Shown: positions 20,107 through 41,919 of the stretch, piece by piece | How positions within the stretch are numbered: the stretch's first letter is position 1 | Layout of the letters: every line of letters starts with the position of its first letter | Origin: Roseateles sp. | Lineage (GTDB): Bacteria > Pseudomonadota > Gammaproteobacteria > Burkholderiales > Burkholderiaceae_C | Length of the DNA stretch: 64,000 nucleotides | NCBI RefSeq assembly: GCF_019237615.1 | Contig: NZ_JAFAGT010000048.1 | Location: 62,001 to 126,000 of the forward strand | Direction: 5' to 3' | Program-made: the position numbers and the translations under genes | The notes under the pieces: model-generated | Told to the model about the DNA's origin: nothing | The model's input: the letters and a program-made list of their open reading frames with translations, nothing else | Databases searched by the model: none

Positions 20107-20190
20107 ATGTCACCCCCAGGCCGCTACGAGCTGGCCGACGTCCAATGGCAAGGGCTGAAGGATCCGGTGCTAGGCAAGGCGGGCTTCAGG
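20107..20190 (+). pseudogene. N-terminal remnant of an IS5-family-like transposase (left edge of the island)
   Basis: Starting at ATG 20107, the translation RYELADVQWQGLKDPVLGKA resembles the first residues of IS5-type transposases (pattern R-Y-E-L-x-D-x-Q-W, then a PLLPGK-like stretch). After about 25 residues the similarity stops, and a stop codon follows at 20218. There is no other gene in 19953-20201. The match is short and made from memory of the family, so it is only moderately certain; it gains weight from a similar remnant at 41640-41919 on the other side of the glycosaminoglycan island. Confidence 0.45.
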
Positions 20191-20201
20191 GCCCTGATGG
20201 G

Positions 20202-21470
20202 TCAATACTCGACCTTGTAGTCCTTGTGCAGCGGCTTGCCGGTCCAGGCCTTGCGCGCGGTCCAGTCGGCCGGCGGGTCGGTCCAGAAACGGTTGTCGGC
20301 AGGCAGGCCCAGCGCCAGGAAGCCGAGCGTGGCCATGTACAGGCTTCCCGTCGAGGTGTAGATGTCGGCGACACCGGGCTGATGGCCGCAGAAGCCCAGC
20401 ACCAGCCAGCCCTTGTCGTCGAAGTTGGCGCAGCCGTCGAACATGCGGCGCATCACCGCGGTGAGCGCGCCGCGCACCTGCGCCGGCGCCACGTGGGGCG
20501 GCAGCTTCTCCATCAGGGCCGCATGGGCCAGGGCCTGGAAGGCTCCGGTGCGATAGGTGATCGAGCGCCCGAACGCGGGATAGCTGCCATCCGGCGCGAT
20601 CAACCGCTCGGTGAACTCCGCATACCGGACCAGGCGCTGCACGGCGGCTTGGTGCTCGGCGGGGTCTGCCATATGGTGGGCGACGAGGATGCCGAGGAAG
20701 TCGACCAGCATCGAATGCATGACGTAGCTGTTGTAGTAGTCCATGCTGAACTTCGGACCGTCGCTGTACCAGCCGTCGCCCACATACCACTCGGCCATCT
20801 TCCGCTTGGCGAACTCGATGCGCACCGGATCGGCTTGCTCGCCGATCGACAGCAGGAAGGCCTCGTTGATGCCGGCGAAGAGCAGCCAGTTGTTGTAGGC
20901 CCCGGTCCGGCTGCGTAAGGCCTTGAACTCGTCGATCAGCCGCTGCCGGGTGGTCTTGTCCAGCGGCTCCCACAAGGCTTTCGGTGCCCGGATGAAGGCC
21001 TGCGCCAAGTACGCGGCATCGACGATGGGCTGCTTCTCGGTCCTGAAGTTCAGGTAGTCCGGATGGGCGGGATTCACGCCGTTGGCGATGCCCTTCAGGA
21101 ATGCGCCGCGCAGTTGTTTGCGCAGCTTGCCTTCGGCCGTGTCGTCGTCGGGCAGGGCCAGCCAGGGGGCAACGCCTGCCATCGTGCGGCCGACTGCCTC
21201 CAGGTGGGTGACCTGACGGAAGAACGCGTCGCCTTGGCCGGGCGGTACCTCGACCGGCATGTTGGCCTTCAGGCTACCGCCGGCCAGGTTCAGGATCACC
21301 GGTGCCGCAATCCGGTAGAGCGTCGCAGCCCAGTATTGCCTGTCCTGCGATCCGTCGGCCGCGGTTATGGGTGCCTGCGCTGACGCGTTCGCGTGCAGCG
21401 CGGTGATGATGACGAACGCCAGCAGGCGGTTTGCGATGGATAGTCGACTCGAGGTGATGTGGGCGGCCAT
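20202..21470 (-). CDS. secreted DUF2264 protein; possible GH154 beta-glucuronidase
   Basis: 422 aa from ATG 21470 (a TTG at 21485 would add five residues). Signal peptide LLAFVIITALHANASAQA, then an (alpha/alpha)6-type domain with DUF2264 features: YWAATLYRIAAPVI, MAGVAPWLALP, NNWLLFAGINEAFLL, GDGWYSDGPKFSMDYYNSYV, PDGSYPAFGRSITYRTGAFQAL and DIYTSTGSLYM. I believe this family underlies CAZy GH154, described as beta-glucuronidase, though I could not check that. In a chondroitin/dermatan locus, an exo-uronidase that trims saturated ends left by lyases would make sense. It is transcribed away from the LacI/GH88 side and has an IS-like remnant just past its 3' end. Confidence 0.75.
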   Translation of the reverse strand: MAAHITSSRLSIANRLLAFVIITALHANASAQAPITAADGSQDRQYWAATLYRIAAPVILNLAGGSLKANMPVEVPPGQGDAFFRQVTHLEAVGRTMAGVAPWLALPDDDTAEGKLRKQLRGAFLKGIANGVNPAHPDYLNFRTEKQPIVDAAYLAQAFIRAPKALWEPLDKTTRQRLIDEFKALRSRTGAYNNWLLFAGINEAFLLSIGEQADPVRIEFAKRKMAEWYVGDGWYSDGPKFSMDYYNSYVMHSMLVDFLGILVAHHMADPAEHQAAVQRLVRYAEFTERLIAPDGSYPAFGRSITYRTGAFQALAHAALMEKLPPHVAPAQVRGALTAVMRRMFDGCANFDDKGWLVLGFCGHQPGVADIYTSTGSLYMATLGFLALGLPADNRFWTDPPADWTARKAWTGKPLHKDYKVEY

Positions 21471-21590
21471 GTCGTTGACTTTCAAGGGATGTATTCGAAA
21501 CGGGTGCGGCTGCCGATTCGCTGGATGCGGCGCCTGCGTCTCAAGAGCAGCCGGGAACGCCGTCGCCCGCTGCGTTGGGGAACAGCGTCA

Positions 21591-21968
21591 TCAGCTGGAG
21601 TTGGGCCCGCCGCGGAAGTCGTTGGCACTGCTGCCATCCAACTTGCAGGGCAGGGCGCCACCGTCCACCTGGGGCAACACCGGTTCGCGCCAGCGCATGA
21701 CCGCCGCGCCCATGTCGGAGTCGTTGCGCTGGTCAGCAGCCGCCGGCTGGTCGGACAGTGTTCCCCAGTGGGGGCGGCTGCCTCGGGTGGACTGCACCGA
21801 GTGCTGCTTCATCCACCCGATCCGGTCGATGAAGGACTTGTCGTTCCAGCCGCCTGCGTCCCGCGCCCTGCGGGCTTCCAGCAGGAAAGGCGGCAGGCCG
21901 AAGCCCGTGCGGCGCGGTGCGCCGCAAAGAAGAGGGCGGGGCTCATGTTCAGCGTGAGTCGGATGCAT
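21591..21968 (-). pseudogene. unrecognised short open frame or gene remnant, 125 codons
   Basis: Open from ATG 21968 to TGA 21591 between the MFS gene and the DUF2264 gene. The middle (GGWNDKSFIDRIGWMKQH, then RPHWGTLSDQP) looks protein-like, but the ends are low-complexity Arg/Pro and I recognise no family. There is no clear ribosome site. It may be the fragment of a larger carbohydrate-active gene, given the surroundings and its WND/IDR/WMK residues, or chance coding. 21471-21590 holds nothing I can identify. Confidence 0.3.
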
Positions 21969-22005
21969 TGCTTCTTCAGGAGGGCGCCTGAGAAGCTGCC
22001 GGTCT

Positions 22006-23409
22006 TCAGCCCGGAGCCTGGTAGTTCCTGGTGCCGCCCAGGGCGTTGAAGGGGCGCAGCAACCAGGCGAAGATCAGCGCCGATGCCGCGGCCAGCAAGC
22101 CGCTAGCCAAGAAGGTGTGGCGGTAGTTCTGCCCGGTCAGGTCGAGCCAGGCGCCGACCAGTGGCGGCACCAACGTGTAGCCGAGTGCGGCCAGGATATT
22201 GGCCGCCGACTGGAACTGCGCGAACCGTTCCTGCGGGTACAGGTACTGGCCGATGGCCGCTGTGCCGGTAACGAACAGTCCCGAGAACACCCCGTGCAGC
22301 ACGAACGCGGCCTGGAACTGCGCCGCCGTCTGAACCAGCAGGCCGGCCGGCAGCATGGCGGCCGCGTACAGCAAGATGCAGCCCAGTCCGACGCGCAAGG
22401 GGTGCAGGCGGTCGGCCAGCCAACCGATGGGCAGGGCCAGCAGCAGCGAGCAGGTATAGGTCAGCGCCAGCGCCTTTCCGTAGCCGTCCAGCCCCAGACC
22501 GATCTGCTTCGCATAGAACACACCAAAGCTGTTGACGGGGTTGAAGGAGATCAGCCCCAGCATCATTGCAAGGAAGACGCCGACGTAGAAGCGGTGGCTG
22601 AAGCACTCACGCATGTAGCGGCGGATCTCCGATTCAGAGCCTCCGGCCCGGGGCTCGGGCGTCTGCGGCGGCGGCGGATAGGCGCCTTCGCGCACGAACC
22701 AGCACATCGTCGCGAAGCCGAGGCCGTAGACGAGCGCGATGCCGATGAAGATCTCGGCGTAGTAGCGCTCGGCCTGACCCACGATCTGGTAGGTGAAGAT
22801 GATGCCCGCCATGAGGCTGACCGCGCGGAACATGCCGTAGAAGCGGCCCGTCAACTTGCTGGGCACGACGTCGGCCACCAGCCCGCCGAAGACGGCATTC
22901 GCGATCACCGAGCCGACCTCGAAAGCGATCCACATCAGGCTGAACCAGGCCAGCTTGCAGGTGCGCAGGCCCGGTGAAGCGCTGCCCAGAAGCCCGTGCA
23001 GGAAAGCGCCGCCCTCGGGAGCGAAGGCCATGCCGATCAGGCCCAGCATCAGCAGCGGCGTGGGCGCCAGCAGGAAGGGGATGCGTCGGCCCCAGCGACC
23101 GCGATGACGATCGGAGCGCACCGCGATGAAGGGCGCAAGCACCATGCTCAGGCCCCAGGGCAGCGAGCCGACCACCAGCGCGACGAACAGGTTGCTCGCC
23201 TCCATCTGTTTGAGCAGGACCTGCGCGACGGGAATCGCGGCGCGCTCCTTCACGCTCCAGGCGAAGTCGCCGATCAACAGGAAGACGAAAAGTGCGAGCA
23301 GGCCGCCCGCGGTATAGGTCAGGCTGCCCTGGTGCCAGCGGCGCGCCGACAGCTTTGGACTGTCGGGCTCGGCGGAGTGTGGTGTCGTGGGTACTGCTTG
23401 AGACTGCAT
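22006..23409 (-). CDS. MFS sugar transporter (GPH/SLC45-like) of the glycosaminoglycan island
   Basis: 467 aa from ATG 23409, 12 predicted membrane helices. The cytoplasmic loop after TM2 contains RSDRHRGRWGRRIPFLLAPT, a motif typical of sugar:cation symporters of the GPH and sucrose-transporter type, and the second half has GWLADRLHPLRVG. It is divergent from the LacI regulator, with two LacI-type palindromes between them, so it is very likely in the same regulon. The probable job is inner-membrane uptake of lyase products (unsaturated disaccharides) brought in by the TonB receptor. Specificity is inferred from context. Confidence 0.88.
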   Translation of the reverse strand: MQSQAVPTTPHSAEPDSPKLSARRWHQGSLTYTAGGLLALFVFLLIGDFAWSVKERAAIPVAQVLLKQMEASNLFVALVVGSLPWGLSMVLAPFIAVRSDRHRGRWGRRIPFLLAPTPLLMLGLIGMAFAPEGGAFLHGLLGSASPGLRTCKLAWFSLMWIAFEVGSVIANAVFGGLVADVVPSKLTGRFYGMFRAVSLMAGIIFTYQIVGQAERYYAEIFIGIALVYGLGFATMCWFVREGAYPPPPQTPEPRAGGSESEIRRYMRECFSHRFYVGVFLAMMLGLISFNPVNSFGVFYAKQIGLGLDGYGKALALTYTCSLLLALPIGWLADRLHPLRVGLGCILLYAAAMLPAGLLVQTAAQFQAAFVLHGVFSGLFVTGTAAIGQYLYPQERFAQFQSAANILAALGYTLVPPLVGAWLDLTGQNYRHTFLASGLLAAASALIFAWLLRPFNALGGTRNYQAPG

Positions 23410-23485
23410 CGCTCTTCGGTCCTTGGCGCTTTGCGCCGTGGCGCCAGGCGTTGGCAGCATGCCGCCGTATGGACCTGGTTCGCAT

Positions 23486-23501
23486 AGGGTAACGTTTCCC
23501 T
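23486..23501. promoter_or_regulatory. LacI-type operator 1 (MFS side)
   Basis: AGGGTAACGTTTCCCT, a near-perfect 16-bp palindrome centred on CG, as LacI/GalR-family operators are. It lies 77 bp upstream of the MFS start, in the divergent MFS/lacI intergenic region. Confidence 0.7.
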
Positions 23502-23594
23502 ATTTGTCATCGTTACCGGGATTTCACGGGGGCGTTTCGCTCGCGAAATGCAGCATGCAGTGCTCTATCTTCCCGAATGCAAGGGTAAACACAT

Positions 23595-23610
23595 AGGGAA
23601 ACGTTTCCTG
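23595..23610. promoter_or_regulatory. LacI-type operator 2 (lacI side)
   Basis: Contains the perfect palindrome GGAAACGTTTCC (23597-23608). It is 109 bp from operator 1 and 149 bp upstream of the lacI ATG, so autoregulation and looping between the two boxes are possible. The rest of 23410-23758 holds no gene. Confidence 0.75.
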
Positions 23611-23758
23611 AAATCCGCATATCATTTGGTCAACGAAAGACGCCGGGGGCTGGAGGCTCCAAGACTGGCTCCGGTGTCGCAGCAACTCCAAGGGCGGCGT
23701 GCAGCCGTGCGGGTGGCAACACAATCCCGCCCGTCAGCAAGCCAGCAGAGGAAAGCGA

Positions 23759-24802
23759 ATGTCCAAGAACTCCGTCACCCTGATCGACGTCGCCAAGCAG
23801 GCTGGCGTTGCGCTGGTGACCGCGTCGCGAGCGCTGAACGGCACGGGCTTCGTCTCCGACGAGACGCGCAAGAAGGTGGTCGCGGCGGCGAAGGCGCTGG
23901 GCTATTCACCCAATCTGTCGGCAAAGATCCTCAAGGGTGGGCGCCCCAACTTGCTGGGCCTGGCGGTCAGCAACCTGCAGTCCAGTGTGATCAACGAGAT
24001 CATCAGTGCCGTCAGCCTTGCCGCCAAGCAGGCAGGGCTGGACCTCATCATCTACAACGCCAGCACCGAGCTGGGTGCGCCCAAGCAGCAGGACATCAAC
24101 CGTGTGCTGGGCGGGTTGTGCGAGGGCATTCTGCTGGTGCTGCCCACTGCGCAGGAAGGCCTGCTGGCCGAGTTCGAGTCGAGCAGCGTGCCGGTGGTGC
24201 TCATCAACTACTGGCGCAACGAGACCCGGCTCCCCACCGTGCGCGGCGACAACTACGAAGGCTCGCGCGCCGCAGTCGGGCATCTGATCGGGCTGGGCCA
24301 CAGCCGTATTGCCTTCATCACCGGCTCGAGCTACACCGGCCAGAGCCAGGAGCGCCAGCGCGGCTACCAGGACGCCCTGAAGCAGGCCGGCATCCGGCCC
24401 GTCAAGAGCCTGGTGGTGCAGGGCGACTTCACGCAATCGGGTGGCTTCGAGGCAGCGCAGCAACTGCTGGCCCAGCCCAAGCGCCCGACGGCCATCTTCG
24501 CCGCCAACGACGCCATGGCCATCGGCGCCATGGATGCGCTCAAGGAGAAGGGTCTGCAGATCCCCGGGGACGTCTCGGTCGTCGGCTTCGACGACAGCCC
24601 GGCGTCAAACCATGTCTACCCCCGACTCACGACCGTGCGCCAGCCGTTGTCGGATATCGGCGAGCAGGCCGTGCGGCTGATCCTGCAGCGCATCCGTGGC
24701 CAGTCGCCGGCAGATGGGGTGGACGACGCGCCGATCGAATTGCCCAGCGCGCTCGTCATCCGCGACTCCTGCGGTCCCTCGCCCGAAGCGGTCCTGGGCT
24801 GA
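23759..24802 (+). CDS. LacI-family transcriptional regulator of the glycosaminoglycan island
   Basis: 347 aa. N-terminal LacI helix-turn-helix [23 protein letters not shown] with hinge helix LSAKILKGG, followed by a periplasmic-binding-protein-like sensor: [54 protein letters not shown] and [13 protein letters not shown] 23759 follows AGAGGAAA and the DNA-binding domain starts at once. Four GGAAACGTTTCC-like palindromes (two upstream of this gene, two upstream of GH88) are the likely binding sites. The inducer may be a disaccharide or unsaturated uronic acid from chondroitin; that is inference. Confidence 0.93.
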
Positions 24803-24827: not shown

Positions 24828-25136
24828 ATGGCAGCACAACTCTTTTCACTGGCGGGTCGCACCGCTTTGGTGACCGGCGGCGCCAGCGGCATCGGCCAGG
24901 CGATTGCTGTGGCGCTGGCGCAGGCAGGGGCGCAGGTCGCTATCACCGTAAATCGCCAGCCCGCCGCGCTGCGGGCCGACGAGGTGCGTCACCGCCAGAT
25001 CCTGGAGCGCATCCCCGCCGGCCGTTGGGGGCGGGCGCAGGACCTCGGGGGCGCGGCCGTCTTTCTCGCGTCCGACGCCTCGGCCTATGTGCATGGCCAG
25101 GCGCTCGCCGTGGACGGGGGATGGCTGGCGCGCTGA
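24828..25136 (+). pseudogene. kduD: kduD with internal in-frame deletion (2-dehydro-3-deoxygluconate 5-dehydrogenase remnant)
   Basis: 102 codons instead of about 253. Residues 1-40 are the start of a short-chain dehydrogenase ([20 protein letters not shown], the NAD-binding glycine motif). From about residue 45 to the end it matches the very characteristic KduD C-terminus ([21 protein letters not shown], then [25 protein letters not shown]). About 150 central residues are missing, including the NNAG and Ser/Tyr-x-x-x-Lys catalytic residues, so it cannot be an active dehydrogenase. The frame is intact across the junction (near [10 protein letters not shown]). KduD acts after GH88 and KduI on the unsaturated uronic acid, so this locus cannot complete that branch by itself. 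Confidence 0.85.
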
Positions 25137-25164
25137 CTACGTCACGATTTATTTGGCTCGAAAT

Positions 25165-25177
25165 GGAAACGTTACCC
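25165..25177. promoter_or_regulatory. LacI-type operator 3 (upstream of GH88)
   Basis: GGAAACGTTACCC matches the other boxes with one mismatched arm. It sits 89 bp before the GH88 start, after the kduD remnant. Confidence 0.65.
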
Positions 25178-25239
25178 TGTATTGATAGGAAGTAGGTCTT
25201 CGAACCTCCCGTGCAAGGGAGATTTCTTTGAAAAAGAAT

Positions 25240-25251
25240 GGAAACGTTTCC
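25240..25251. promoter_or_regulatory. LacI-type operator 4 (abutting the GH88 start)
   Basis: Perfect palindrome GGAAACGTTTCC, ending two bases before ATG 25254 and eight before ATG 25260. It lies where the ribosome site should be, and 63 bp separate it from the end of operator 3. Bound repressor there would block elongation, and the sequence itself replaces a good Shine-Dalgarno. Confidence 0.75.
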
Positions 25252-25253
25252 TC

Positions 25254-26426
25254 ATGATCATGCAAACAACCACTGAAACGACCACCGCCGCCAGCTTCGA
25301 TGTGCCCCTGTCGCAAGCCCTGGCGCAGGTGCGCCGCCTTCGCGACGAGTTTCCTGAAGGATTCCCTCACGGCTGGACGCAGGACAACCGCTATCTGGCG
25401 CGCGACCTGTACGGCTTCGCGCCCGGCTCGAACGTCGGCTGGACGACCGGCTTCTGGACGGGCCTGCTGTGGCTTGCCTTCGAGCTCGCCGATGACGCGG
25501 CCTGCAAGGCCTCTGCCGCCGAGCACGTGAGCAGCTTTGCCACCCGTATCAGCAACCGCGTCAACGTCGACCACCACGACATGGGCTTCCTCTACACGCC
25601 CTCCTGCGTGGCCGCGTGGAAGCTGACGGCAGACCCGCTGGCGCGCGACGCTGCACTGGCCGCGGCCGATTGGCTGCTGCAGCGCTATTGGCCGCAGGCC
25701 GGCATCATCCAGGCCTGGGGCGACCTGACCGATCCCGAGCAGCGCGGCCGCATCATCATCGACTGCCTGCTGAACCTGCCCTTGCTCTTCTGGGCAAGCG
25801 CCACCAGTGGCAACGAGGCCTACCGCGAAGCCGCGCGCAGCCACCTTGTGAAGTCGCGCGATTTCCTGGTGCGCGAGGACGCATCGAGCTTCCATACTTA
25901 CCACTTCGACGTCGCCACAGGCGCGCCGCTGCGCGGCAGCACCGCCCAGGGCGCCGCGGACGACTCCTGCTGGGCGCGCGGCCAGGCCTGGGGCATCTAC
26001 GGCTTCGCGCTCAATCACCGTTTCGCGCCTGACCTCGACCTGCTCCCCGTCGCGCGTCGCCAAGCTGACTACTTCCTGGCCCGCCTGCCCGGCAACGGCG
26101 TCGCTTACTGGGACCTCGCCTACGGTGACGGCAGCGGCGAACCCTGGGACAGCTCGGCCTCGGCCATCGCCGCGTGCGGCCTGATCGAACTGGCCTCACA
26201 CCTCCCGGCGAGCGAGGGCGAGCACTACCGCCAGGAGGCGCTGCGCATCCTGGCCGGCCTGGCCCAGCACTGCAACGGCGCCACCGCCGGCTCCAACGCC
26301 CTGCTGCTGCACGGCGTCTACAGCAAGCCGCACGGCAAGGGCATCGACGAAGCCTCTCTGTGGGGCGACTACTTCTATCTCGAAGCGCTCGCCCGGGCGG
26401 CTCGTGACTGGAAGGGGCATTGGTAG
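25254..26426 (+). CDS. GH88 unsaturated glucuronyl hydrolase
   Basis: 390 aa, cytoplasmic (no signal peptide). It removes the 4,5-unsaturated uronic acid from lyase-made disaccharides by vinyl-ether hydration. The GH88 (alpha/alpha)6 barrel is visible: TGFWTGLLWLAFE, HHDMGFLYTPSCVAAWK, IIIDCLLNLPLLFW, DDSCWARGQAWGIYGFALNH, WDLAYGDGSGEPWDSSASAI and SLWGDYFYLEALAR. Catalytic Asp109 and Asp170 are 61 residues apart, exactly as Asp88/Asp149 in the Bacillus GL1 enzyme. Starts at 25254 and 25260 (M-I-M) are equivalent. It is preceded by two LacI operators, and a TonB receptor gene follows in the same direction, so it opens the catabolic run. Confidence 0.93.
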   Translation: MIMQTTTETTTAASFDVPLSQALAQVRRLRDEFPEGFPHGWTQDNRYLARDLYGFAPGSNVGWTTGFWTGLLWLAFELADDAACKASAAEHVSSFATRISNRVNVDHHDMGFLYTPSCVAAWKLTADPLARDAALAAADWLLQRYWPQAGIIQAWGDLTDPEQRGRIIIDCLLNLPLLFWASATSGNEAYREAARSHLVKSRDFLVREDASSFHTYHFDVATGAPLRGSTAQGAADDSCWARGQAWGIYGFALNHRFAPDLDLLPVARRQADYFLARLPGNGVAYWDLAYGDGSGEPWDSSASAIAACGLIELASHLPASEGEHYRQEALRILAGLAQHCNGATAGSNALLLHGVYSKPHGKGIDEASLWGDYFYLEALARAARDWKGHW

Positions 26427-29480: not shown

Positions 29481-29629
29481 AGCTGGGCTGGCCTCGGGTG
29501 TTGGCGGCCTTTCGGGGGCTGCTGGCAGCCACTGATTGGGATCCCGTCCACGCCCGCGGCCAGCGATCCACCTTTTCCGACCGGGCTTCTCATGCCCGAC
29601 AGGCGCTCTCCCTTCCTCACGTTGACTTC

Positions 29630-32079: not shown

Positions 32080-32091
32080 CGGCTACCGAGC

Positions 32092-33033: not shown

Positions 33034-34190
33034 ACAGGGTGCGAGGACGCGTGCTGACGGCTGAGGGCTGGCGGCTTGCCGAGGTGAGCATGGCGCAGCG
33101 CATCGAGTCGATCCGCGAGCTGTCGGATTCCGAGCTGGCGGGCTTCGATCCGGCCGAACTGCCCCTCGTGCTGCCAGGCTTCATCGACCTGCACGTGCAT
33201 GGCGCCGTGGGGCGGGATGTGATGCAGGGCGGCGATGCGGCGCTCGAGGTTGCCCGCTTCCATGCCCGGCACGGCACCACCACCATGCTCGCCACCACCA
33301 TGACGGCCTGCGAGGCCGACATCGAGCGCGCACTGCGCGGCGTGCGTCGCGGCATGGACGCCCTTGCGCCGGATGGCGCCCGGATCCTGGGCGTGCACCT
33401 GGAAGGCCCGTTCATCAGCGAGCAACGCCTGGGTGCCCAGCCGCCGCAGGTCATGCGCGGCGATATGGAGCGCATCCGGCGGTGGCAAGCGATAGCGCCA
33501 ATCCTCGCGCTGACGCTTGCGCCCGAGATTGAAGGCCACCTGGCGCTCATCCCGGAGCTGGTCGCCCTGGGAATGCGCGTGCAGCTCGGTCACACGGCCG
33601 GCAGCTACGATGACGGCGTGAAGGCCTTGCAGGCAGGTGCGACGAGCTTCACCCACTTGTTCAACGGCATGACCGAGATGTCGCATCGTCAGCCCGGCAT
33701 TGCCTGTGCCGCACTGGCTCATGCCGAGTTCGCTGAAATCATCCCGGATCTGCAGCACGTGCAGCCGGGCGCCATCCTGGCTGCTCTGCGTGCCATCCCC
33801 AAGGCTTACGGCATCACCGACGCCACGCCAGCCACGGGCATGCCCGATGGCGAATACACGCTGGGCACCCAGCGCGTGTTCAAGTGCATGGGTTGCGTTC
33901 GCCTCGTACTCGGCGACTCGTTGGCGGGAAGTGCGCTGACCATGGACCAGGCGCTGAGGAACTTCGTCTCCCTGGGGTTGGACCTGGCCGACGCGTCCAA
34001 CCGCTTGTCACGGTTTCCCGCTGAATACCTTGGCCTCGCGGATCGAGGCCGCATAGAGGTTGGCGCCTGGTCCGACGTGGTCTCGCTCGATGCTGAGCTC
34101 AACGTTCAGAGCGTGTGGGTGGAGGGGCGGAAGATCCTGCAGATGTCGTGTCCGACCCAACCTGAGATCACCGCGAGGGCGCCTGCATGA
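33027..34190 (+). CDS. agaA: N-acetylgalactosamine/glucosamine-6-phosphate deacetylase (NagA/AgaA family)
   Basis: 387 aa amidohydrolase. Metal-site residues are visible: H56-V-H58 in GFIDLHVHG, HLEGPFIS, MRVQLGHTAG, SFTHLFNGMTEM and the catalytic Asp in YGITDATPATGMPDG. It deacetylates amino-sugar 6-phosphates. The operon places it between a ROK kinase (overlap 7 bp) and a PL8 lyase (overlap 4 bp, ATGA), feeding AgaS. Whether it prefers GalNAc-6-P (AgaA) or GlcNAc-6-P (NagA) cannot be read from sequence; AgaS and AgaZ nearby favour the former. Confidence 0.9.
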   Translation: MLNRVRGRVLTAEGWRLAEVSMAQRIESIRELSDSELAGFDPAELPLVLPGFIDLHVHGAVGRDVMQGGDAALEVARFHARHGTTTMLATTMTACEADIERALRGVRRGMDALAPDGARILGVHLEGPFISEQRLGAQPPQVMRGDMERIRRWQAIAPILALTLAPEIEGHLALIPELVALGMRVQLGHTAGSYDDGVKALQAGATSFTHLFNGMTEMSHRQPGIACAALAHAEFAEIIPDLQHVQPGAILAALRAIPKAYGITDATPATGMPDGEYTLGTQRVFKCMGCVRLVLGDSLAGSALTMDQALRNFVSLGLDLADASNRLSRFPAEYLGLADRGRIEVGAWSDVVSLDAELNVQSVWVEGRKILQMSCPTQPEITARAPA

Positions 34191-36649
34191 AAGCCATCTC
34201 ATCCCTCGCGGCGAGCCGTGCTTTGCTGGCATTGCTCGCCGCGCTGACCGCGGCATGTCCGGCCGCGCAACTGACGACGGCCGAGGCTTCGACGACGCAG
34301 GTGGCCGCCAGGGCAGCAACCGCCGAGGCATTCAATGCGCTGCGCCAGCGCTGGCTGCAGAAGCTGGTTGGCCCGGCATCGCTGGACCGCCGGGAGCCTC
34401 AGGTGGCGAGCCGACTGCGCAGCCAGTCCGACGCGGCGCTGCGAGCATTGCAGCAGATGCACCGTGAGCCCGGCGCCAAGGCGCTGTGGGACGACATCGG
34501 CGACTTCAAGAACCCCGACACGCTGGCAGCGTCGGCATTGGTGACCAGCAATGCCGTGCGCCTGCTGGCGATGGCGCAGGCCTATGGCACGCCCGGATCG
34601 CCGACCTATCGAGACGTCCGCCTGGCCGCGGGCATCTCTGCCGGCCTGGACTGGCTGGTACGTGAGCAATACACCGCCGGCCGTCGCGAGTGGGGCAACT
34701 GGTGGCACTGGCAGATCGGCACGCCCTTGCACCTGCTCGATCTCCTGACACTGGCGGGAGACGCCGTGCCTGCGGATCTGCGCCAACGCTGCCTGGACGC
34801 CATCAACTGGTATGTCCCGGATCCTCGGACAAAGACTCGTGCAGACGGGACGCTTGTCCATGAGACCGGTGCCAACTTGCTCGACAAGTCGCTGGTGGCC
34901 ATCCTCAGCGGCATGCTGGGCCAGGACGGCGCTCGTATCGCGTCCGGCCGCGACGCCATCAGTGGTTCGCTGGACTACGTGACCACGGACGACGGCTTCT
35001 ACCGCGACGGCTCGTTCATCCAGCACCACTATTTCGCCTATGCCGGCAGTTACGGTGTGGTGGCCCTTGAGGACTATGCGCGGCTGCTGTACCTGTTGCA
35101 CGGCTCCTTCTGGCCCGTCACCGATCCGCGCGTTGCCAATGTCTACGCGTTTGCGCGGGAGAGCTTCGCGCCGCTGCTGATCGATGCCGCCATGCCTGAC
35201 GCATTTCGCGGCCGCAAGCTCAGCCAGCCGAGCCATACCGACCGCAGCGCTGGTCGCGCCGTCATCGGCGCGTTGGCTTCGCTGGCCGAGCAGGCGCCGC
35301 CTGCAGACGCAGCCGCGCTGCGCAGCGCCATCAAGGGATGGATGGCGCAGGATCGCAACCTTGTGGCCTCACTGTCAGGTGAGGGCGGTGGCGCCAACGT
35401 GCCTTTGCATGAGCTGAGCCTGCTCAAGGCCATTGCCGCCGACTCGAGCGTCCAGCCCGTCATGGAAGCTCCGGGTGCACGGATCTACCCCGCCATGGAC
35501 CGCGCCGTGCTGCGAGGGAGCGGCTTTGCCGCCGTGCTCAGCCTGACGTCGCCGCGCACGGGTGCCTTTGAAATGGGCAACGGCGAGAACCTCAAAGGCT
35601 GGTGGACCGGCATGGGCAGGCTGGCGCTTTACGACGCCGACGTGGCGCAGTTCGCTGACAGCTACTGGCCCACAGTGGACATCCTGCGCCTGCCCGGCAC
35701 CACCACTGACCGGTCGGGTGCAGGTCGGCCCGAAGCCTGGAGGCAATATGCCAATCCCGAAGCCTGGGTTGGCGGTGTCGCGCTGGGGAGGTGGGCGGCT
35801 CTGGGAATGGCCTTCTCGATGCGCGAGGTGACCGGCTCGCCCCTGAGGGGGCGCAAGGCCTGGTTCCTGCTCGGTGACCGCATCCTCGCGCTGGGCTCAG
35901 GCATCGCGCCGGGGGCGGTTGCGGCCGAGACTATCGTCGAGAACCGCCGGCTGTCCGATGCGTCCGGCGCCCGATTGCTGGTCGACGGCCAGGATCTGCC
36001 CAACGGCAGGCGCAGCGATGTGCACTGGGCCCATCTGCAGGACGACAAGGCTGGCAGCAGCATCGGCTATGTCTTCCCGCTGGGCACCGACCTCGTGACC
36101 GAGCGGAGCGAACGCCACGGCACTTGGCACGATCTGCATGCCTACGCCAGCAAGCAAGACCTGAAAGGCAGCTACCAAGTGCTGGCCATCCCGCATGGCA
36201 GCCCGGCGTACGCCTACCTGCTGCTGCCCAGGGCCGGTGAGGCCGAAACGCGAGCTGCAGCCGCCGAGCCCGGGCTGCGCATCGAAGCCAATGATGAACA
36301 GGCTGCGGTGGTTCAGGTGCCGAGCGCGGGTGTCTATGCGGCCAATCTTTGGACGGCGGGCAGTGCGGCCAAGGATGGCAAGCCCTATGTGTCGAGTTCG
36401 AAGCCGGTGGCGCTGCTTATCCAGCGCAGCGGTGATCGGATGAAAGTGGTCGTGGCCGAGCCGACGCAAAGAGAGGCTGCCCTGGAGTTGACGCTCGAGC
36501 AGCCGGTGATATCGGTCGGGCAGATGGACGCCGGAGTGACGGTCCTGGCAACCGCGCCGAAGCTGCGTCTGCGCGTGAATACCGCCGGAGCGGCCGGTGC
36601 GAGCTTCGCGGCCGAGTTCATCCTTCCCGCGGCAATGTCCAAGCCCTGA
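34187..36649 (+). CDS. PL8 lyase, chondroitinase AC / hyaluronate lyase type
   Basis: 820 aa, exported (leader ALLALLAALTAACPAAQ; C24 could make it a lipoprotein, though the lipobox LTAAC is weak). An N-terminal (alpha/alpha) toroid and C-terminal beta-sandwich domains form a typical PL8. The catalytic triad is recognisable: N230 in ETGANLLDKS, H280 in SFIQHHYF and Y289 in YAGSYG. The spacings of 50 and 9 equal Asn349/His399/Tyr408 of pneumococcal hyaluronate lyase and Asn175/His225/Tyr234 of Flavobacterium chondroitinase AC. MGNGENLKGWW is the conserved substrate-binding Glu/Asn segment. It eliminates at hexosaminyl-uronic acid bonds, giving the disaccharides used by GH88. ATGA overlap with the deacetylase gene. 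Confidence 0.93.
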   Translation: MKAISSLAASRALLALLAALTAACPAAQLTTAEASTTQVAARAATAEAFNALRQRWLQKLVGPASLDRREPQVASRLRSQSDAALRALQQMHREPGAKALWDDIGDFKNPDTLAASALVTSNAVRLLAMAQAYGTPGSPTYRDVRLAAGISAGLDWLVREQYTAGRREWGNWWHWQIGTPLHLLDLLTLAGDAVPADLRQRCLDAINWYVPDPRTKTRADGTLVHETGANLLDKSLVAILSGMLGQDGARIASGRDAISGSLDYVTTDDGFYRDGSFIQHHYFAYAGSYGVVALEDYARLLYLLHGSFWPVTDPRVANVYAFARESFAPLLIDAAMPDAFRGRKLSQPSHTDRSAGRAVIGALASLAEQAPPADAAALRSAIKGWMAQDRNLVASLSGEGGGANVPLHELSLLKAIAADSSVQPVMEAPGARIYPAMDRAVLRGSGFAAVLSLTSPRTGAFEMGNGENLKGWWTGMGRLALYDADVAQFADSYWPTVDILRLPGTTTDRSGAGRPEAWRQYANPEAWVGGVALGRWAALGMAFSMREVTGSPLRGRKAWFLLGDRILALGSGIAPGAVAAETIVENRRLSDASGARLLVDGQDLPNGRRSDVHWAHLQDDKAGSSIGYVFPLGTDLVTERSERHGTWHDLHAYASKQDLKGSYQVLAIPHGSPAYAYLLLPRAGEAETRAAAAEPGLRIEANDEQAAVVQVPSAGVYAANLWTAGSAAKDGKPYVSSSKPVALLIQRSGDRMKVVVAEPTQREAALELTLEQPVISVGQMDAGVTVLATAPKLRLRVNTAGAAGASFAAEFILPAAMSKP

Positions 36650-36683: not shown

Positions 36684-38246
36684 ATGTCCAGTTCTCGTCG
36701 CAACTTCGTCAAGCAGGTGGCTACCGGCGGCGGCCTGCTGTTGTCCGGCAAGGCGTCCCAGGCCGCGGCCGCGGCGTCCTGCTCGACAGCAGGGCCTGCC
36801 GCCAAGCCGCTGAATCTGCTGCTGGTGTTCCCGGACGAGATGCGTGCCCAGGCCCAGGGTTTCATGCGCGCGGATCCGGTGCTGACGCCCCGTGTCGACC
36901 TGTTCGCCCGGGAGTCGCGCGTGATGACGCAGGCCGTCTCCAACTACCCGCTCTGCACGCCGGCACGCGGCATGATCATGACTGGCCAGTACCCGATACG
37001 GAACGGGATGACCGGCAACTGCCATGACTACGGGGCACTGGTCGGCATTGACCTTTCCCGGCATGCGATCTGCTGGTCGGATGTGCTGAAGGCCCAGGGC
37101 TATGCCCTCGGCTACGTCGGCAAGTGGCATCTGGACGCGCCGCACGAGCCCTACGTTCCCAGCTACAACAACCCCGTCAACGGTACGAAGTGGAACGAAT
37201 GGACGCCGCCGGAGCGCCGGCATGGCTTCGATTTCTGGCATGCCTACGGAACCTACGACCTGCACCTGACGCCCATGTACTGGACGAACAGCGGTGACCG
37301 CGACCATCCCATCCATGTCAGGCAATGGGGGCCTGAGCACGAGGCCGACGTCGCCATCCAGTACCTGCGCAACGAGGGCGGCAAGCTGCGCGACCCCGCC
37401 AAGCCCTTTGCGCTGGTGGTGTCGATGAACCCGCCCCACTCGCCCTACGACCAGGTGCCGAAGAAGTACCTGGCCCGGTACGAGGGCATGAGCAGCCGCG
37501 ACCTCAATCGGCGCGAGACCGTCGACTGGGCCAAGAAGTACGAGGAGGGCTACGGCCCGGAGCACGCCAAGTCCTACTTCGCCATGGTCAGCGGTGTAGA
37601 CGAGCAGTTCGGGCGCATCCTCGATGCCCTCGACGAATGTGGCCTGCGCGACGACACCTTGGTGGTGTTCTTCTCCGATCACGGTTGCTGCCTGGGCGCC
37701 CACGGCGAGCCCACCAAGAACAATCCCTTCGAAGAATCCATGCGGATTCCGATGATGTTCCGCCTCCCCGGCCGGATCGTTGCCGGCACGGATGCGTCGC
37801 TGATGTCGCTGCCCGACCTGTATCCCACCGTGCTGGGGCTGCTCGGCCTGGCCGACAAGATTCCGGCAACGGTGGAAGGTTCCGACTGGTCAGCCAGGGT
37901 GCAGACGGGGAATGGCGCTGCCGCCAGCTCGCAGCTCTATCTCTCCGTCCCCTACGGCGCCCAGTCGTTCGGCAAGCGAGGGGTCAGAACGGAAAGCCAC
38001 ACGCTTGTGATCCAGCGAGCCGACAGGCAGGCCCTGCGCTACACACTCTTCGACAACGTCGCTGATCCGCTGCAGAAGCGCGACGTTGCGGCACAGCATC
38101 CGGCCCTCGTGAAGGAACTGATCGAGCGGGAACTGCTGCCCTGGCTGGAAAAGACCGGCGATCCCTGGCGGCCGGCCGAGTTCGATACGACTTCGCGGTC
38201 GGTCAGAGCGTTCCGGATGAACGCCGCGCAGGGCCCGGAGCGCTGA
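36684..38246 (+). CDS. exported sulfatase, S1 family, Cys-type active site
   Basis: 520 aa; ATG 36684 follows GGAGAA. The twin-arginine leader SSRRNFVKQVATGGGLLLSG suggests Tat export, meaning the enzyme folds in the cytoplasm. The sulfatase signature is L-C91-T-P-A-R-G-M-I-M-T-G, in which Cys91 becomes formylglycine; GYVGKWHLD and FFSDHGCCLGAHGE are the conserved lysine and metal segments. It should remove 4-O- or 6-O-sulfate from GalNAc of chondroitin oligosaccharides (position not deducible). No formylglycine-generating enzyme or anSME maturase is encoded in the window, so it must be elsewhere. It lies 34 bp after the PL8 gene, with a terminator after it. Confidence 0.92.
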   Translation: MSSSRRNFVKQVATGGGLLLSGKASQAAAAASCSTAGPAAKPLNLLLVFPDEMRAQAQGFMRADPVLTPRVDLFARESRVMTQAVSNYPLCTPARGMIMTGQYPIRNGMTGNCHDYGALVGIDLSRHAICWSDVLKAQGYALGYVGKWHLDAPHEPYVPSYNNPVNGTKWNEWTPPERRHGFDFWHAYGTYDLHLTPMYWTNSGDRDHPIHVRQWGPEHEADVAIQYLRNEGGKLRDPAKPFALVVSMNPPHSPYDQVPKKYLARYEGMSSRDLNRRETVDWAKKYEEGYGPEHAKSYFAMVSGVDEQFGRILDALDECGLRDDTLVVFFSDHGCCLGAHGEPTKNNPFEESMRIPMMFRLPGRIVAGTDASLMSLPDLYPTVLGLLGLADKIPATVEGSDWSARVQTGNGAAASSQLYLSVPYGAQSFGKRGVRTESHTLVIQRADRQALRYTLFDNVADPLQKRDVAAQHPALVKELIERELLPWLEKTGDPWRPAEFDTTSRSVRAFRMNAAQGPER

Positions 38247-38335: not shown

Positions 38336-38367
38336 GGCCCCTGATTTTCCAACAGGGGCCCTTTTTG
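38336..38367 (+). terminator. rho-independent terminator after the sulfatase gene
   Basis: Stem GGCCCCTG (38336-38343), 9-nt loop, CAGGGGCC (38353-38360), then CTTTTTG. It ends the lacI-to-sulfatase transcription run and separates it from the second lyase. The rest of 38247-38515 shows no gene and no clear LacI-type box. Confidence 0.8.
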
Positions 38368-38515
38368 TACCGACCGCCGGCCGAGGGGTTGCGTCCGGCC
38401 CGTTCCAGGCACCGACTTGTGCCAAGGCCCGCGCCTTGCGGCATTCGTCACCGATGCAGACCCAGGGGTCTCCCGGACGGTCGCCACTCCCACCCAAGGC
38501 TCTCCCAGACACACG

Positions 38516-41500
38516 ATGACAAATACCACCGGTGATTTCGTGTCAAGAATTTCGTTGCTGCTGGCAGCAATGCTGCTGAGCGAACCTCTGCTGGCGGCCA
38601 ATCCGACGGCCCACGCCGACGACCGCACTCCAGCACGGCTGGAGCGTTTCGAAGACGGCGTTCCGGCAGGGTTCTCGACGCTGAAAGGGCAGCTCAGCGT
38701 GTCCGGCGAGCACGTCAAGGACGGCAGCCACTCGCTGAAGTGGGACTGGCGTGAGGGCGACAGCCTCGTCATCCGGCACCCGTTCGCATTTCGTCCCTTC
38801 GTTGCCAACGGCGCCGATCAGCGGCGTGATGGCATCACGGTGTGGATCTACAGCTCGAGGCCTTTCGAAGGGCAATATCGCTTCCAGTTCCACAAGGGTG
38901 AGCAGGCGGCTTCGTCGTTCGTGATGAACGCGAACTTCACGGGCTGGCGCGCTGCGGTCGTTTCGTTCGAGATGGACATGGAAGGCCAGCCGCTGGTGGG
39001 CATGGACCGCTTGACGATCACGCCCCCGGTCGGCGCGGCAAGCGGCACCGCCTGGATTGACCAGCTCGGGCTGGACATGCGGATCGACATGCGTCATCCG
39101 GCCGCCGACTATCAGCTTCCGTACCTGAACAAGACCGCGCTCAGCTCAGCCAACCGGCACTGGACTGCGTTGATCCACTTCGATCGTTGGCTGCAGGAGG
39201 CGCAGGCTCGCCGCGTAGCGGTTGCAGCACCGGAGCCTGTGGCGACTGAACCCATCAGCGCGCTGATCGACGGCGAGCTGCTTGAAGGCAAGCTCGGTTC
39301 GGGTGATGCGCTGGAGATCGCCAGGCGTCAGGTGCTGATGCCGAACGGGGCGATCAAGGCGCTGGCAGAAACCGCCCATCAGTGGGAGATGTACACCACC
39401 AGCGGCGTCGACAAGAACTCGATGGCTGCATTGCGCGCCAGCACTGCCACCTGGAAGGAATTCGGCGCCGCGATGCGGGTGCTTGCCGTGGCCTACCGCC
39501 GTGGCAAGGACGGCGCCACGCGCGACAAGCTGCGTGACCTGTTCCTGCAGCTGAACTCGAACCTGGCCGACCAGGGCCTCGTGCGCGGCAGCGGCCAGGG
39601 GCTGATGCATCACCAGGGCTACATCTTGCGCGACTGGGCAGATGCGGTGTTCCTGATGCGTGACGAACTGGGCGAGCAGCGTGCCCAGACCATGCAGGCG
39701 CTGGCCTACTACGCGGGCCTGGGCCGCGTCTATGAGCCGACTTCCGAGATCGTCGAGTTCAACGTCGATGTGATGAACACGATGATCCAGCCTGCGCTGT
39801 ACGCGATCCTGATGGATACCGATGCTGCGCGACGCGACGCCTTGCTGGGCGACCTCTCGGCATGGATGTCGGCCTCGACGTTGAAGTCGCAGGGGCTGGC
39901 CGGCGGGATCAAGCCTGACGGAAGCGTCTTCCATCACGGCCAGCACTACGTGGCCTACGGCAACGGCGGGTTGACGGGCGTGACAGCGGTCGTTCGCTAC
40001 CTGGAGGCGAGCCGATTCCCCATCACCGAGCAGGCCTATGCGCGCATTCGTGACGCGGTGTTGCGCACCCGCGTTTACTCCAGCGACGGGTTGATTCCAA
40101 TGAGCCTGACCGGCCGACACCCGGACGGCTTCCAGTCGATCGCGATCGCGCCGTTTCGCTCATTGGCGCAGGCAAGGGGGGCCGCAGACCCGGAACTTGC
40201 TTCGGCCTATCTGCGGCTGGTGCGTGATGATTGGGCGGGAAAGAAGGCTTCGGGCCCGACCGAAGTCGACCAAAAGTTGGCGCGCGAACTGGCTGCCAAG
40301 GGTGTCAAGCCCGAGGCCGACCCGCAGGGCAGCTGGACGATGAACTACTCGTCGATGGCGCTGCACCGGCGCGATGGCTGGCTGGCGGCCGCGCGCGGCT
40401 ACAGCCGCTACCTGGCGGGCAACGAGTCGTACTACAAGAAGAACCTTTACGGGCGCACCATCAACTATGGTGCTCTTGAAATCATGCCCGCCGATGGGGC
40501 CAAGCGCGGATTTGCTGCGGACGGTTGGAACTGGAATCGGTGGCCTGGCACCACCGCGATCCAGCAGCCGCTGGCCCGTCTCGAAGCCAAGGTGCTGAAC
40601 GTTGAGCCGTCGGCCGGCGTCGAGGAGATGCTCCTGTCGGAAGAAAGCTATTCCGGCGGGCTCGATTTCCGCGGCTGGCAAGGAATGTTTGCGATGAAGC
40701 TGCAAGGTCACCCGAAATACGGTGACGACCTGGTTGCGCGCAAGTCGGTCTTCATGTTCGACGGGCGCATCGTCGCCCTGGGTTCAGGCATCAGCGCCAG
40801 CGATCGGCAGTCTCCGGTGCAGACAACTCTGTTCCAGGACCGGCTGCTGCCGGGCGAAGAAAGCGCAGGCATGGACGGCGTTGGCGCGCCTTGGAGCGCC
40901 AACGAGACGCGTTTGCGCCTGGATGGCTCGCGCTTTGCTCGCGACGAGCGTGGCAACGGCTGGTGCCTGGCGCCGGGCCAGACGGTGGCATTCAAGCGCG
41001 GCACACAGGCATCGGTGGACGAGACGGGCAGCACTGCCACGCGCGGAGATTTCGCCAGCCTGGTGATCGACCACGGCGTTGCACCTGCCAACGCCGGCTA
41101 CGAGTACGCAACATTCGTCGGCATGCCCGGCGACACCGGCCGCAAGATGTGCAGCGAGTTGGGCACGGCCAAGGCTGCGTATGCCGTCATTGCCCGCTCG
41201 CGTCGCGCGCACATCGTTCATGACCGCGCCACGGGGCTCATCGCCTATGCCTTGTTCGAGCCGGGGGCCGTGGAGAGCGGGGGGCTGTTGCAGGCGGTGT
41301 CCAGCCCCGCGATGCTGATGCTGCGCGGGGAAAAGGACAAGCTGTCGGGATCGTTCGTGAACCCCGACCTGAACCTCTATCAGGGCAGGGATCCGGAGCA
41401 GTACGACGCCTCGGGCGCGCGCCGCGAACGAATCGTCTACGGCCTGTCCTGGATGGAACAGCCGTCTCGGCCGATAGACACGGTGGTGACATTGCGAGGG

Positions 41501-41620
41501 CGCTGGAAACTCGCCAGCCCGGTTGATGGCCTGGCGATCCGTGTCAACGGACGGACCAGCGAACTGATGTTCCGGACCAGGCACGCGACACCAGTGCAGT
41601 TCGACCTGGTCAGGGACTGA
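38516..41620 (+). CDS. PL8 lyase, chondroitin sulfate ABC endolyase type
   Basis: 1034 aa from ATG 38516, close to the 1021 aa of Proteus chondroitinase ABC I. Signal peptide LLLAAMLLSEPLLAANP. Residues 40-190 form a lyase N-terminal carbohydrate-binding-like beta-sandwich (RLERFEDGVPAGFSTL, then DGSHSLKWDW). The catalytic toroid contains H474 and Y481 (HHGQHYVAYGNGG, 7 apart as His501/Tyr508 in ABC I), R534 in SLTGRHPDG and E637 in NESYYKKNLYGR, matching Arg560/Glu653. Such enzymes also cut dermatan sulfate. It has its own transcription unit after a terminator; no good ribosome site is visible. An IS-like remnant follows its stop codon. Confidence 0.9.
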   Translation: MTNTTGDFVSRISLLLAAMLLSEPLLAANPTAHADDRTPARLERFEDGVPAGFSTLKGQLSVSGEHVKDGSHSLKWDWREGDSLVIRHPFAFRPFVANGADQRRDGITVWIYSSRPFEGQYRFQFHKGEQAASSFVMNANFTGWRAAVVSFEMDMEGQPLVGMDRLTITPPVGAASGTAWIDQLGLDMRIDMRHPAADYQLPYLNKTALSSANRHWTALIHFDRWLQEAQARRVAVAAPEPVATEPISALIDGELLEGKLGSGDALEIARRQVLMPNGAIKALAETAHQWEMYTTSGVDKNSMAALRASTATWKEFGAAMRVLAVAYRRGKDGATRDKLRDLFLQLNSNLADQGLVRGSGQGLMHHQGYILRDWADAVFLMRDELGEQRAQTMQALAYYAGLGRVYEPTSEIVEFNVDVMNTMIQPALYAILMDTDAARRDALLGDLSAWMSASTLKSQGLAGGIKPDGSVFHHGQHYVAYGNGGLTGVTAVVRYLEASRFPITEQAYARIRDAVLRTRVYSSDGLIPMSLTGRHPDGFQSIAIAPFRSLAQARGAADPELASAYLRLVRDDWAGKKASGPTEVDQKLARELAAKGVKPEADPQGSWTMNYSSMALHRRDGWLAAARGYSRYLAGNESYYKKNLYGRTINYGALEIMPADGAKRGFAADGWNWNRWPGTTAIQQPLARLEAKVLNVEPSAGVEEMLLSEESYSGGLDFRGWQGMFAMKLQGHPKYGDDLVARKSVFMFDGRIVALGSGISASDRQSPVQTTLFQDRLLPGEESAGMDGVGAPWSANETRLRLDGSRFARDERGNGWCLAPGQTVAFKRGTQASVDETGSTATRGDFASLVIDHGVAPANAGYEYATFVGMPGDTGRKMCSELGTAKAAYAVIARSRRAHIVHDRATGLIAYALFEPGAVESGGLLQAVSSPAMLMLRGEKDKLSGSFVNPDLNLYQGRDPEQYDASGARRERIVYGLSWMEQPSRPIDTVVTLRGRWKLASPVDGLAIRVNGRTSELMFRTRHATPVQFDLVRD

Positions 41621-41639
41621 GCAATGCTCGAGAAGCGCC

Positions 41640-41919
41640 GGTAGTGGTTGCCCCGATCATTGACCGGCATTGCAAGCGCCCTGCCCAGACCCCAGGCGCA
41701 GCCCAGCGGGTAAAGCGCTTGTGCGCGACCTTGTACTTGCCGAAGCGCTCAGGCAGGCCGCTGCGGCGCACCCGAGCGCAACACCCCTGGCACTGGGCTG
41801 ACGAAGCTGCGACCGTCACTGCCGCCACGCCCCGGGATCGCCCGCCTCCTTGCCGGGCAGCGAGCCCTCCAGGCTTGCCATTGGGCGTCAGTCAGCTCGT
41901 CACGGCTTGGACATGACAT
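41640..41919 (-). pseudogene. degraded IS5-family transposase N-terminus (right edge of the island)
   Basis: Read leftwards from ATG 41919: SRDELTDAQWQAW, then GGSDGRSFVSPVPGVLRSGAP in one frame; after a shift near 41750 the reading continues GLPERFGKYKVAHKRFTRWAAPGVW in another. Both halves are the well-known N-terminal stretch of IS5-type transposases (D-L-T-D-x-Q-W, RSGAP, LPERFGKYKTVHKRFxRW). The rest of the element, including the DDE residues and a recognisable terminal repeat, is missing. It fills most of the 356-bp gap 41621-41976 and marks the end of the glycosaminoglycan island. Confidence 0.82.

Follow-up and report, generated by a model that had tools for sequence, protein, structure and literature searches.

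The closest described systems for the breakdown of chondroitin sulfate (CS) come from Proteus, Vibrio, and Bacteroides. In Proteus vulgaris, two CS lyase genes, a putative sulfatase gene, an unsaturated glycuronyl hydrolase gene, and phosphotransferase system (PTS) genes lie in one operon (PMC9067506). The conjugative Vibrio navarrensis plasmid pVN20-VB00237 carries a nearly full CS pathway (1053–45805 of our locus L093) together with its own sulfatase maturase, and CS polysaccharide utilization loci (PULs) are known from B. thetaiotaomicron (PMC9067506) and, as PUL25, from B. caccae (PMC12269599). Here we analyze a stretch of 64,000 nucleotides from Roseateles sp. (assembly GCF_019237615.1, contig NZ_JAFAGT010000048.1, positions 62,001–126,000; hereafter the window), in which a block of 12 open genes and one broken gene occupies positions 20202–41620. 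We have high confidence that this block is a catabolic island for CS and dermatan sulfate (DS), including the pathway and history proposed below, because its GH88 hydrolase, chondroitinase ABC-type lyase, 4-O-sulfatase, β-D-glucuronate dehydratase (GDH), and AgaS/AgaZ proteins all fit these substrates. The gene order is GDH and a major facilitator superfamily (MFS) transporter on the minus strand followed on the plus strand by a LacI-family regulator, the kduD remnant, GH88, a TonB-dependent receptor, agaZ, agaS, a ROK kinase, a deacetylase, the lyase PL8a, the sulfatase, and the lyase PL8b; the stop codons of the GDH gene (20202) and of PL8b (41620) mark the edges. Every open gene except that for GDH had been named in a preliminary description of this DNA and all of these proved real and open, whereas the GDH gene and the truncated kduD had gone unnamed. 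The block is more than a chance grouping: the same 12 genes are found in collinear order with 84–97% protein identity in a sister species (G366), with no stop codons in the aligned parts and dN/dS values of 0.06–0.27.

We compared the island proteins with the Vibrio and Proteus stretches by TBLASTN (match threshold 1e-8). The Vibrio plasmid shares the chondroitinase ABC-type PL8 lyase (38%), the sulfatase (56%), AgaZ (54%), AgaS (48%), and the deacetylase (35%), and it also has GH88 and DUF2264 genes annotated, the island GH88 being unmatched at 1e-8. Its gene list alone includes a PTS, KduI, KduD, a class II tagatose-bisphosphate aldolase (matched by Escherichia coli KbaY at 61%), Eda, an anaerobic sulfatase maturase, and four lyases, whereas the TonB receptor, the ROK kinase, and the MFS transporter belong to the island only, none being listed on the plasmid and the island versions being unmatched there. 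Shared with Proteus are two PL8 lyases and, in a 45-kb P. mirabilis stretch, the sulfatase (62%), AgaZ (54%), AgaS (47%), and the deacetylase (35%); this stretch has KduD-like and maturase-like matches, leaves E. coli KbaY unmatched, and contains no match at 1e-8 to the island GDH, MFS transporter, TonB receptor, ROK kinase, GH88, or PL8a. AgaZ, AgaS, the deacetylase, the sulfatase, and PL8b therefore have relatives that are grouped on both the Vibrio plasmid and the Proteus stretch. Uptake in P. vulgaris is by PTS, in contrast to the TonB receptor and MFS transporter of the island. The Bacteroides PULs have lyases, a 4-O-sulfatase, and GH88 in common with the island, and GDH is 65% identical to BcGDH of B. 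caccae PUL25; however, the B. thetaiotaomicron PUL has a SusC/SusD-like pair and a hybrid two-component system regulator where the island has LacI, a SusD-free TonB receptor, and an MFS transporter (PMC9067506).

The preliminary description considered such a locus poorly documented. Among the papers listed by a literature search, judged from titles and abstract beginnings and mostly without subscription journals, none dealt with a betaproteobacterial chondroitin locus, and PMC9067506 contains no word beginning with Burkholder; the novelty is nevertheless weaker than stated, as proteobacterial CS loci free of SusC/D are known from Proteus and from the Vibrio conjugative plasmid. What differs here is the lineage, the TonB receptor, MFS transporter, and ROK kinase replacing a PTS, the BcGDH-type dehydratase, an AgaZ without GatY/KbaY, and the differing places of the island in sister species. 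A CS island is thereby placed in a lineage for which the listed papers showed none, and the newly described class of dehydratase is found in a locus that is otherwise of proteobacterial type but takes up its substrate by another system.

PL8b (38516–41620, plus strand; PF09092, PF09093, PF02278, and PF02884) is a chondroitinase ABC-type lyase that scores 514 bits against the chondroitinase 2q1f, a Bacteroides enzyme that we take to be BT3324, and 278 bits against cABC-I (1hn0). It retains His501, Tyr508, Arg560, His561, and Glu653, five of the six residues that line the cleft of cABC-I, and the sixth, Arg500, is replaced by His as it is in 2q1f, so that PL8b has the active-site residues of a CS-cleaving family. 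A protein search of genome contigs with PL8b returned three Photobacterium records and one Psychromonas record only, at 38–40%. PL8a (34187–36649, plus strand; PF08124, PF02278, and PF02884) is a PL8_1-type lyase of the chondroitin AC/hyaluronate/xanthan group and retains the Asn, His, Tyr, and Arg of the aligned xanthan lyase, presumably the catalytic residues. The proposal that both lyases have intact active sites is borne out by these alignments, and, judged by eye, both are probably exported.

The sulfatase (36684–38246, plus strand) is identical at 286 of 498 positions (57%) to endoVB4SF (6j66), a Vibrio CS/DS 4-O-endosulfatase. Of the 14 active-site residues defined for endoVB4SF (PMC6581707), 13 are identical; the 14th is Cys at the formylglycine position, which appears as A in the PDB chain. 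The protein has a single C-x-P-x-R motif, CTPAR, in agreement with the earlier assignment as a Cys-type sulfatase, and its identity and active-site matches to endoVB4SF group it with CS-specific sulfatases. Three of the six rim residues are also kept (Y301, N357, and Y436, of which N357 belongs to the active-site list too), and by eye the N terminus is twin-arginine-like. As candidate sulfatase activators of the formylglycine-generating enzyme (FGE) type, two PF03781 proteins of the genome (four matched stretches) were considered and excluded, because their NCBIfam names are EgtB and SenA. Both pass the respective cut-offs, the selenoneine synthase SenA at 6094–7329 of L090 (contig C18) and EgtB at 4897–6039 of L089 (contig C57), and the strain may make selenoneine and ergothioneine.

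At the opposite end of the block, GDH (20202–21470, minus strand; DUF2264, PF10022 at 1e-119, formerly GH154) is identical at 250 of 384 positions (65%) to the chondroitin β-D-glucuronate dehydratase BcGDH of B. caccae (9o4u). BcGDH, described in 2025, converts a saturated terminal glucuronate to an unsaturated end and thereby supplies GH88 (PMC12269599). All ten residues whose alanine mutants lost activity in BcGDH, in assays for which the authors warn of a poor test substrate (PMC12269599), are present in the island protein, as are Y175 and Y401, and the N terminus is signal-peptide-like by eye. By comparison, GDH and the DUF2264 protein encoded on the Vibrio plasmid share just 27% identity over 227 residues. 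With a Bacteroides-like GDH next to a sulfatase, AgaZ, AgaS, deacetylase, and PL8b that share Proteus and Vibrio relatives, the island looks mosaic. GH88 (25254–26426, plus strand; PF07470) has as its best solved relatives the unsaturated glucuronyl hydrolase 2zzr (362 bits) and the gbs1889 chains, presumably from S. agalactiae, and no signal peptide was seen by eye.

As the preliminary description had stated, uptake does not follow the Bacteroidota-type PUL scheme. The TonB-dependent receptor (26508–29480, plus strand; PF00593 and PF07715) scores 29 bits against the SusC/RagA model, whose cut-off is 368, and no SusD family was found among the open reading frames scanned with Pfam, leaving no SusC/SusD pair. 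The MFS transporter (22006–23460, minus strand; PF07690) has relatives encoded near GH88 in two genomes of the same family, with 73% identity in G034 and 64% in G013, and is a putative importer of unsaturated disaccharides. In the pathway that we propose, exported PL8b (and PL8a) would cleave the chain by β-elimination, the 4-O-sulfatase would take off the 4-sulfate of N-acetylgalactosamine (GalNAc), and exported GDH would convert saturated non-reducing-end glucuronate to the unsaturated form. The TonB receptor would then import oligosaccharides across the outer membrane and the MFS transporter disaccharides across the inner membrane, and flux in the cytoplasm would divide at GH88, predicted to split the disaccharide into unsaturated uronate and GalNAc. 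The ROK kinase, the deacetylase, and AgaS would turn GalNAc into tagatose-6-phosphate, and AgaZ may be sufficient to convert this product to fructose-6-phosphate.

The genes for the GalNAc branch are contiguous and on the plus strand. AgaZ (29498–30922, with a likely start near 29630) is GatZ/KbaZ-like and passes the cut-off of TIGR02810 (614 bits against 569). AgaS, a galactosamine-6-phosphate deaminase/isomerase (30934–32079), scores 458 bits against the TIGR02815 cut-off of 529 and is identical to E. coli AgaS at 182 of 371 positions (49%). The best NCBIfam model for the ROK kinase (32092–33033; PF00480), a proposed GalNAc kinase, is GlcNAc kinase, under the cut-off, and the amidohydrolase at 33027–34190, a proposed GalNAc-6-phosphate deacetylase, scores 209.5 bits against the nagA cut-off of 225.65. 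With AgaZ above its cut-off and AgaS at 49% identity, GalNAc catabolic genes are present, and the argument that they point beyond hyaluronan to chondroitin or dermatan holds.

A PF01116 profile search recovered one protein each in the window genome, in G366, and in G034; the one from the window genome, the only one classified further, is a class II fructose-bisphosphate aldolase (TIGR01521, 592 bits against a cut-off of 496), and thus no GatY/KbaY-type aldolase, and no GatYZ/KbaYZ pair with its catalytic partner, was found in this genome by this search. AgaZ may therefore act alone as a tagatose-6-phosphate 4-epimerase yielding fructose-6-phosphate. Its sequence retains all seven of the metal-site and distinguishing residues named for GatZ (Cys20, Glu44, Asp87, His88, Glu171, His257, and Lys279) in PMC11907403, where the published mechanism is a model; because KbaZ has the same seven, they cannot by themselves tell whether AgaZ is an epimerase or a helper. 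Conversion of fructose-6-phosphate to tagatose-6-phosphate takes place in vivo in E. coli by means of GatZ and KbaZ, and GatZ is cited for the reverse (PMC11907403). In the window genome an Edd-like protein adjoins Eda on contig C18. Given this neighbor, which we take to be Edd, fructose-6-phosphate could exit via the Entner–Doudoroff route. That the island encodes a natural, self-contained GalNAc pathway lacking a tagatose-bisphosphate step, with AgaZ physiologically a 4-epimerase feeding this route, is a tentative proposal for which we consider the case nearly balanced. If true, the label "non-catalytic aldolase subunit" conceals a pathway enzyme, and loci having AgaZ without AgaY can be taken to encode a distinct GalNAc pathway.

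AgaZ might instead belong to the classical route via tagatose-1,6-bisphosphate, in which an unlinked kinase would be joined by an aldolase, either the housekeeping enzyme of class II or one of the LacD type (class I); we regard this as a real possibility, albeit a doubtful one. PF08013 is classically labeled as the non-catalytic subunit of the aldolase, and AgaZ was earlier proposed as a tagatose-6-phosphate kinase (PMC12118421); on the other hand, the aldolase search, which covered PF01116, gave the TIGR01521 enzyme as the only protein, and 4-epimerase activity is on record for both GatZ and KbaZ (PMC11907403). The sister species, in which kduD is intact in one and broken in the other, together with a genome devoid of a GatY/KbaY aldolase, provide a natural test of the function of GatZ/KbaZ-type proteins. 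Separately, the P. mirabilis stretch (L094) has AgaZ and AgaS relatives and no KbaY match within its 45 kb, and is possibly a second case of AgaZ without AgaY.

The regulator (23759–24802, plus strand) matches LacI/RbsR/PurR models, the best at 233 bits and none reaching its cut-off, and it is 97% identical to its homolog in G366 and 80% identical to that in G034. Two operator-like palindromes, AGGGTAACGTTTCCCT (23486) and AGGGAAACGTTTCCTG (23595), lie at 23486–23610 in the gap between the MFS gene and lacI, and two more, ATGGAAACGTTACCCT (25163) and ATGGAAACGTTTCCTC (25238), lie at 25163–25253 upstream of GH88. The window contains exactly four copies of their common core, GGNAACGTTNCC, against 0.05 expected, and none of 100 shuffles reached four, a figure that is descriptive and not blind as the pattern was picked after these gaps had been viewed. 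Among 92 loci, the G366 island stretch has four copies of the core, in the matching gaps, the G034 locus has two, L009 has one, and the other 89 have none; the occurrences in G366 and G034 are independent support, though G366 is closely related. Flanking lacI on both sides, the four predicted sites are placed like LacI operators and agree with the LacI control proposed earlier; LacI would repress at them until an inducer is released.

The uronate branch is where the island falls short. The kduD remnant (about 24831–25136, plus strand), between lacI and GH88, retains approximately 46 N-terminal and 56 C-terminal codons in one frame and has lost approximately 150 internal codons, in contrast to the full-length gene of G366 (L057:982–1737). 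The gap presumably takes in the SDR active site, as read from the G366 copy. The scores of the homologs from G034 and G013 exceed the cut-off of the KduD model. A complete pair of KduI/DhuI and KduD/DhuD was not found in a search that covered the island kduD and PF04962. With kduD deleted and PF04962 absent, 4-deoxy-L-threo-5-hexulosuronate (DHU) needs unlinked enzymes or else the uronate branch, having lost the island KduD, would be dead in this strain. DhuI is described as a non-homologous replacement (PMC12838403).

Several observations weigh against the proposed reading. Seven of the 12 proteins (the MFS transporter, LacI, GH88, the TonB receptor, the ROK kinase, and PL8a, and in Proteus also GDH) are unmatched in the Vibrio or Proteus stretches. 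Since AgaS, the ROK kinase, and the deacetylase all fall under their NCBIfam cut-offs, their role in GalNAc use rests on context and on the identity of AgaS to the E. coli protein. The other three rim residues of the sulfatase differ from the endosulfatase (F433S, R443K, and K458A), which makes an endo mode uncertain, and no FGE, and hence no activator of the sulfatase, was found in a genome search that covered the PF03781 family. The nearest solved relative of PL8a is a xanthan lyase, and the sequence of PL8a does not single out a substrate. If one mismatch is allowed in the palindrome core, five sites are found against 1.26 expected, a consensus with one extra fixed base per side recovers just two of the four palindromes, and a promoter scan found no sigma-70-like promoter (0; shuffles 1.6). 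Besides the internal deletion of kduD, a profile search found no KduI-family (PF04962) protein in the window genome or in G366, both approximately 99% complete; the absence rests on this search, which gave matches in 6 of 14 control genomes, whereas TBLASTN with the KduI of G013 did not recover the KduI for which the Vibrio plasmid has an annotation. Finally, the pathway is read from genes, and growth and enzyme activity are predictions.

The description of the island as complete-looking was accordingly too strong, given the deleted kduD, the missing PF04962 protein, PF03781 proteins that are EgtB and SenA, and an AgaZ lacking a GatY/KbaY partner; a CS/DS island with a GalNAc branch, a LacI regulator, and a TonB receptor plus MFS transporter in place of SusC/D stands, and completeness and novelty are weaker than claimed. 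The kduD deletion, the missing PF04962 protein and FGE, and the insertion sequence (IS) remnants on both sides of the block would also fit a decaying relic that has ceased to sustain growth on the complete disaccharide. We consider this unlikely: the remaining 12 genes are open and stop-free with the dN/dS values given above, the palindromes are retained, and the GalNAc arm is intact. Genes for the lacking functions may also lie elsewhere, the searches not having extended to an anaerobic maturase, to DhuI, or to further reductases.

Genome comparison within the genus showed that the block is collinear in G366 but lies at another chromosomal place, with genes of pca type on one side and of FMN-reductase/kdp type on the other (neighbors identified by reading). 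The two genomes cease to be similar in DNA at approximately 20179 and 41622, next to the stop codons of the GDH gene and PL8b. At the place corresponding to the window, the G366 flanks are approximately 40 bp apart, and most of the AraC gene to the left of the island is missing there as well. This AraC-type regulator is encoded at 18397–19851, and the G366 left-flank match ends inside it at 18854. Both flanks lie on one contig 13–1975 bp apart in 14 of the 19 other genus genomes (G366, G030, G403, G400, G404, G407, G401, G156, G405, G306, G408, G410, G412, and G399); the flank matches were not found together in G238, G402, G406, G409, and G411. Among the 8 of 48 plasmid records listed as matches to the right flank, the best-placed are from Burkholderia, at approximately 79% over 11% of the query, which agrees with Burkholderiales but is weak evidence. 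The converse, an empty site in the window genome at the G366 place, could not be shown: the query L056:2500–4688 has partial matches, and the sequence from its opposite side is spread over two contigs. In G238, G412, and G399, a search of the corresponding pca-type region that was confined to the island proteins and AraC gave no hits.

The simplest history suggested by these data is one gain in the ancestor of the two sister species followed by at least one change of place, perhaps via IS elements. An independent acquisition of the block by transfer in each species would account for its different chromosomal places and for the 17 of 20 genus genomes without PL8; however, the two species are sisters with support of 100/99 in an aconitase tree of 20 rows, and the long island alignments have 85–90% DNA identity, resembling the 88–90% of the flanks, making two separate transfers improbable. 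PL8 (PF02278) is rare among relatives, occurring in 5 of 399 genomes of the family and in 3 of 20 of the genus, the window genome being included in both counts, and the chondroitinase ABC-type domain PF09093 was found in 1 of 399 order genomes, the window genome itself; this last set samples the order, and its matches do not include G366, whose second lyase is 85% identical to PL8b. That a whole catabolic block occupies differing chromosomal places in sister species is in itself of interest.

The limits of 20107 and 41919 first assigned to the island both fall within IS4/5-like remnants; the portion common with G366 is approximately 20179–41622. The left remnant (20040–20182, plus strand) carries the outward-facing terminal repeat GGCTCAATCGACATTC and has no Pfam match by itself. 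The right remnant (41623–41977, minus strand), with the same repeat outermost and facing outward, has a broken transposase frame with two weak DUF4096 matches below the cut-off (8e-4 and 1e-5), and unannotated DNA approximately 70–80% identical to it is found in three plasmid records. The two are inverted to each other, with 72% identity over 144 bp (E value 1.3e-17; 41845–41978 on the right side). The repeat was not found in 40 kb around the G366 island, and the three loci (of 92) that contain a longer form of it all belong to the present stretch of the window genome. The hallmarks of a composite transposon, a complete IS at each end and a duplicated target site, are not seen, the remnants being just approximately 143 and at most 355 bp long with no direct repeat at the edges by eye; a composite-transposon-like move would be one possible mechanism.

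Shorter loci related to the island are found in G034 (L061) and G013 (L062). These share LacI, the MFS transporter, GH88, and a PL8_1 lyase with the island, and the operator core in the case of G034; unlike the island, they have an intact KduD and no match to the sulfatase, the Aga proteins, or GDH within 20 kb, and the G013 locus additionally encodes a PF04962 protein and a PfkB kinase. They are perhaps hyaluronan-type, the substrate being a guess, and such loci may have been the source of the island's genes for uptake and control. It is very improbable that the main substrate of the island itself is hyaluronan or another uronate polymer, for PL8a possibly xanthan, with the sulfatase and AgaS/AgaZ acting elsewhere, as the existence of these loci and the best scores of PL8a to xanthan lyase among solved relatives (392 bits, against 352 for 2wco and 329 for the chondroitin AC lyase 1rw9) and, far under its cut-off, to the HylB model among NCBIfam models might suggest, because PL8b, the 4-O-sulfatase, GDH, and AgaS/AgaZ are all consistent with CS/DS. 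A lone PL8 lyase of 947 aa is encoded in G399 (L070, contig C63, 9582–12425) near UDP-glucose dehydrogenase-family, glycosyltransferase, and acyltransferase genes, as if to trim a self-made exopolysaccharide that contains uronate.

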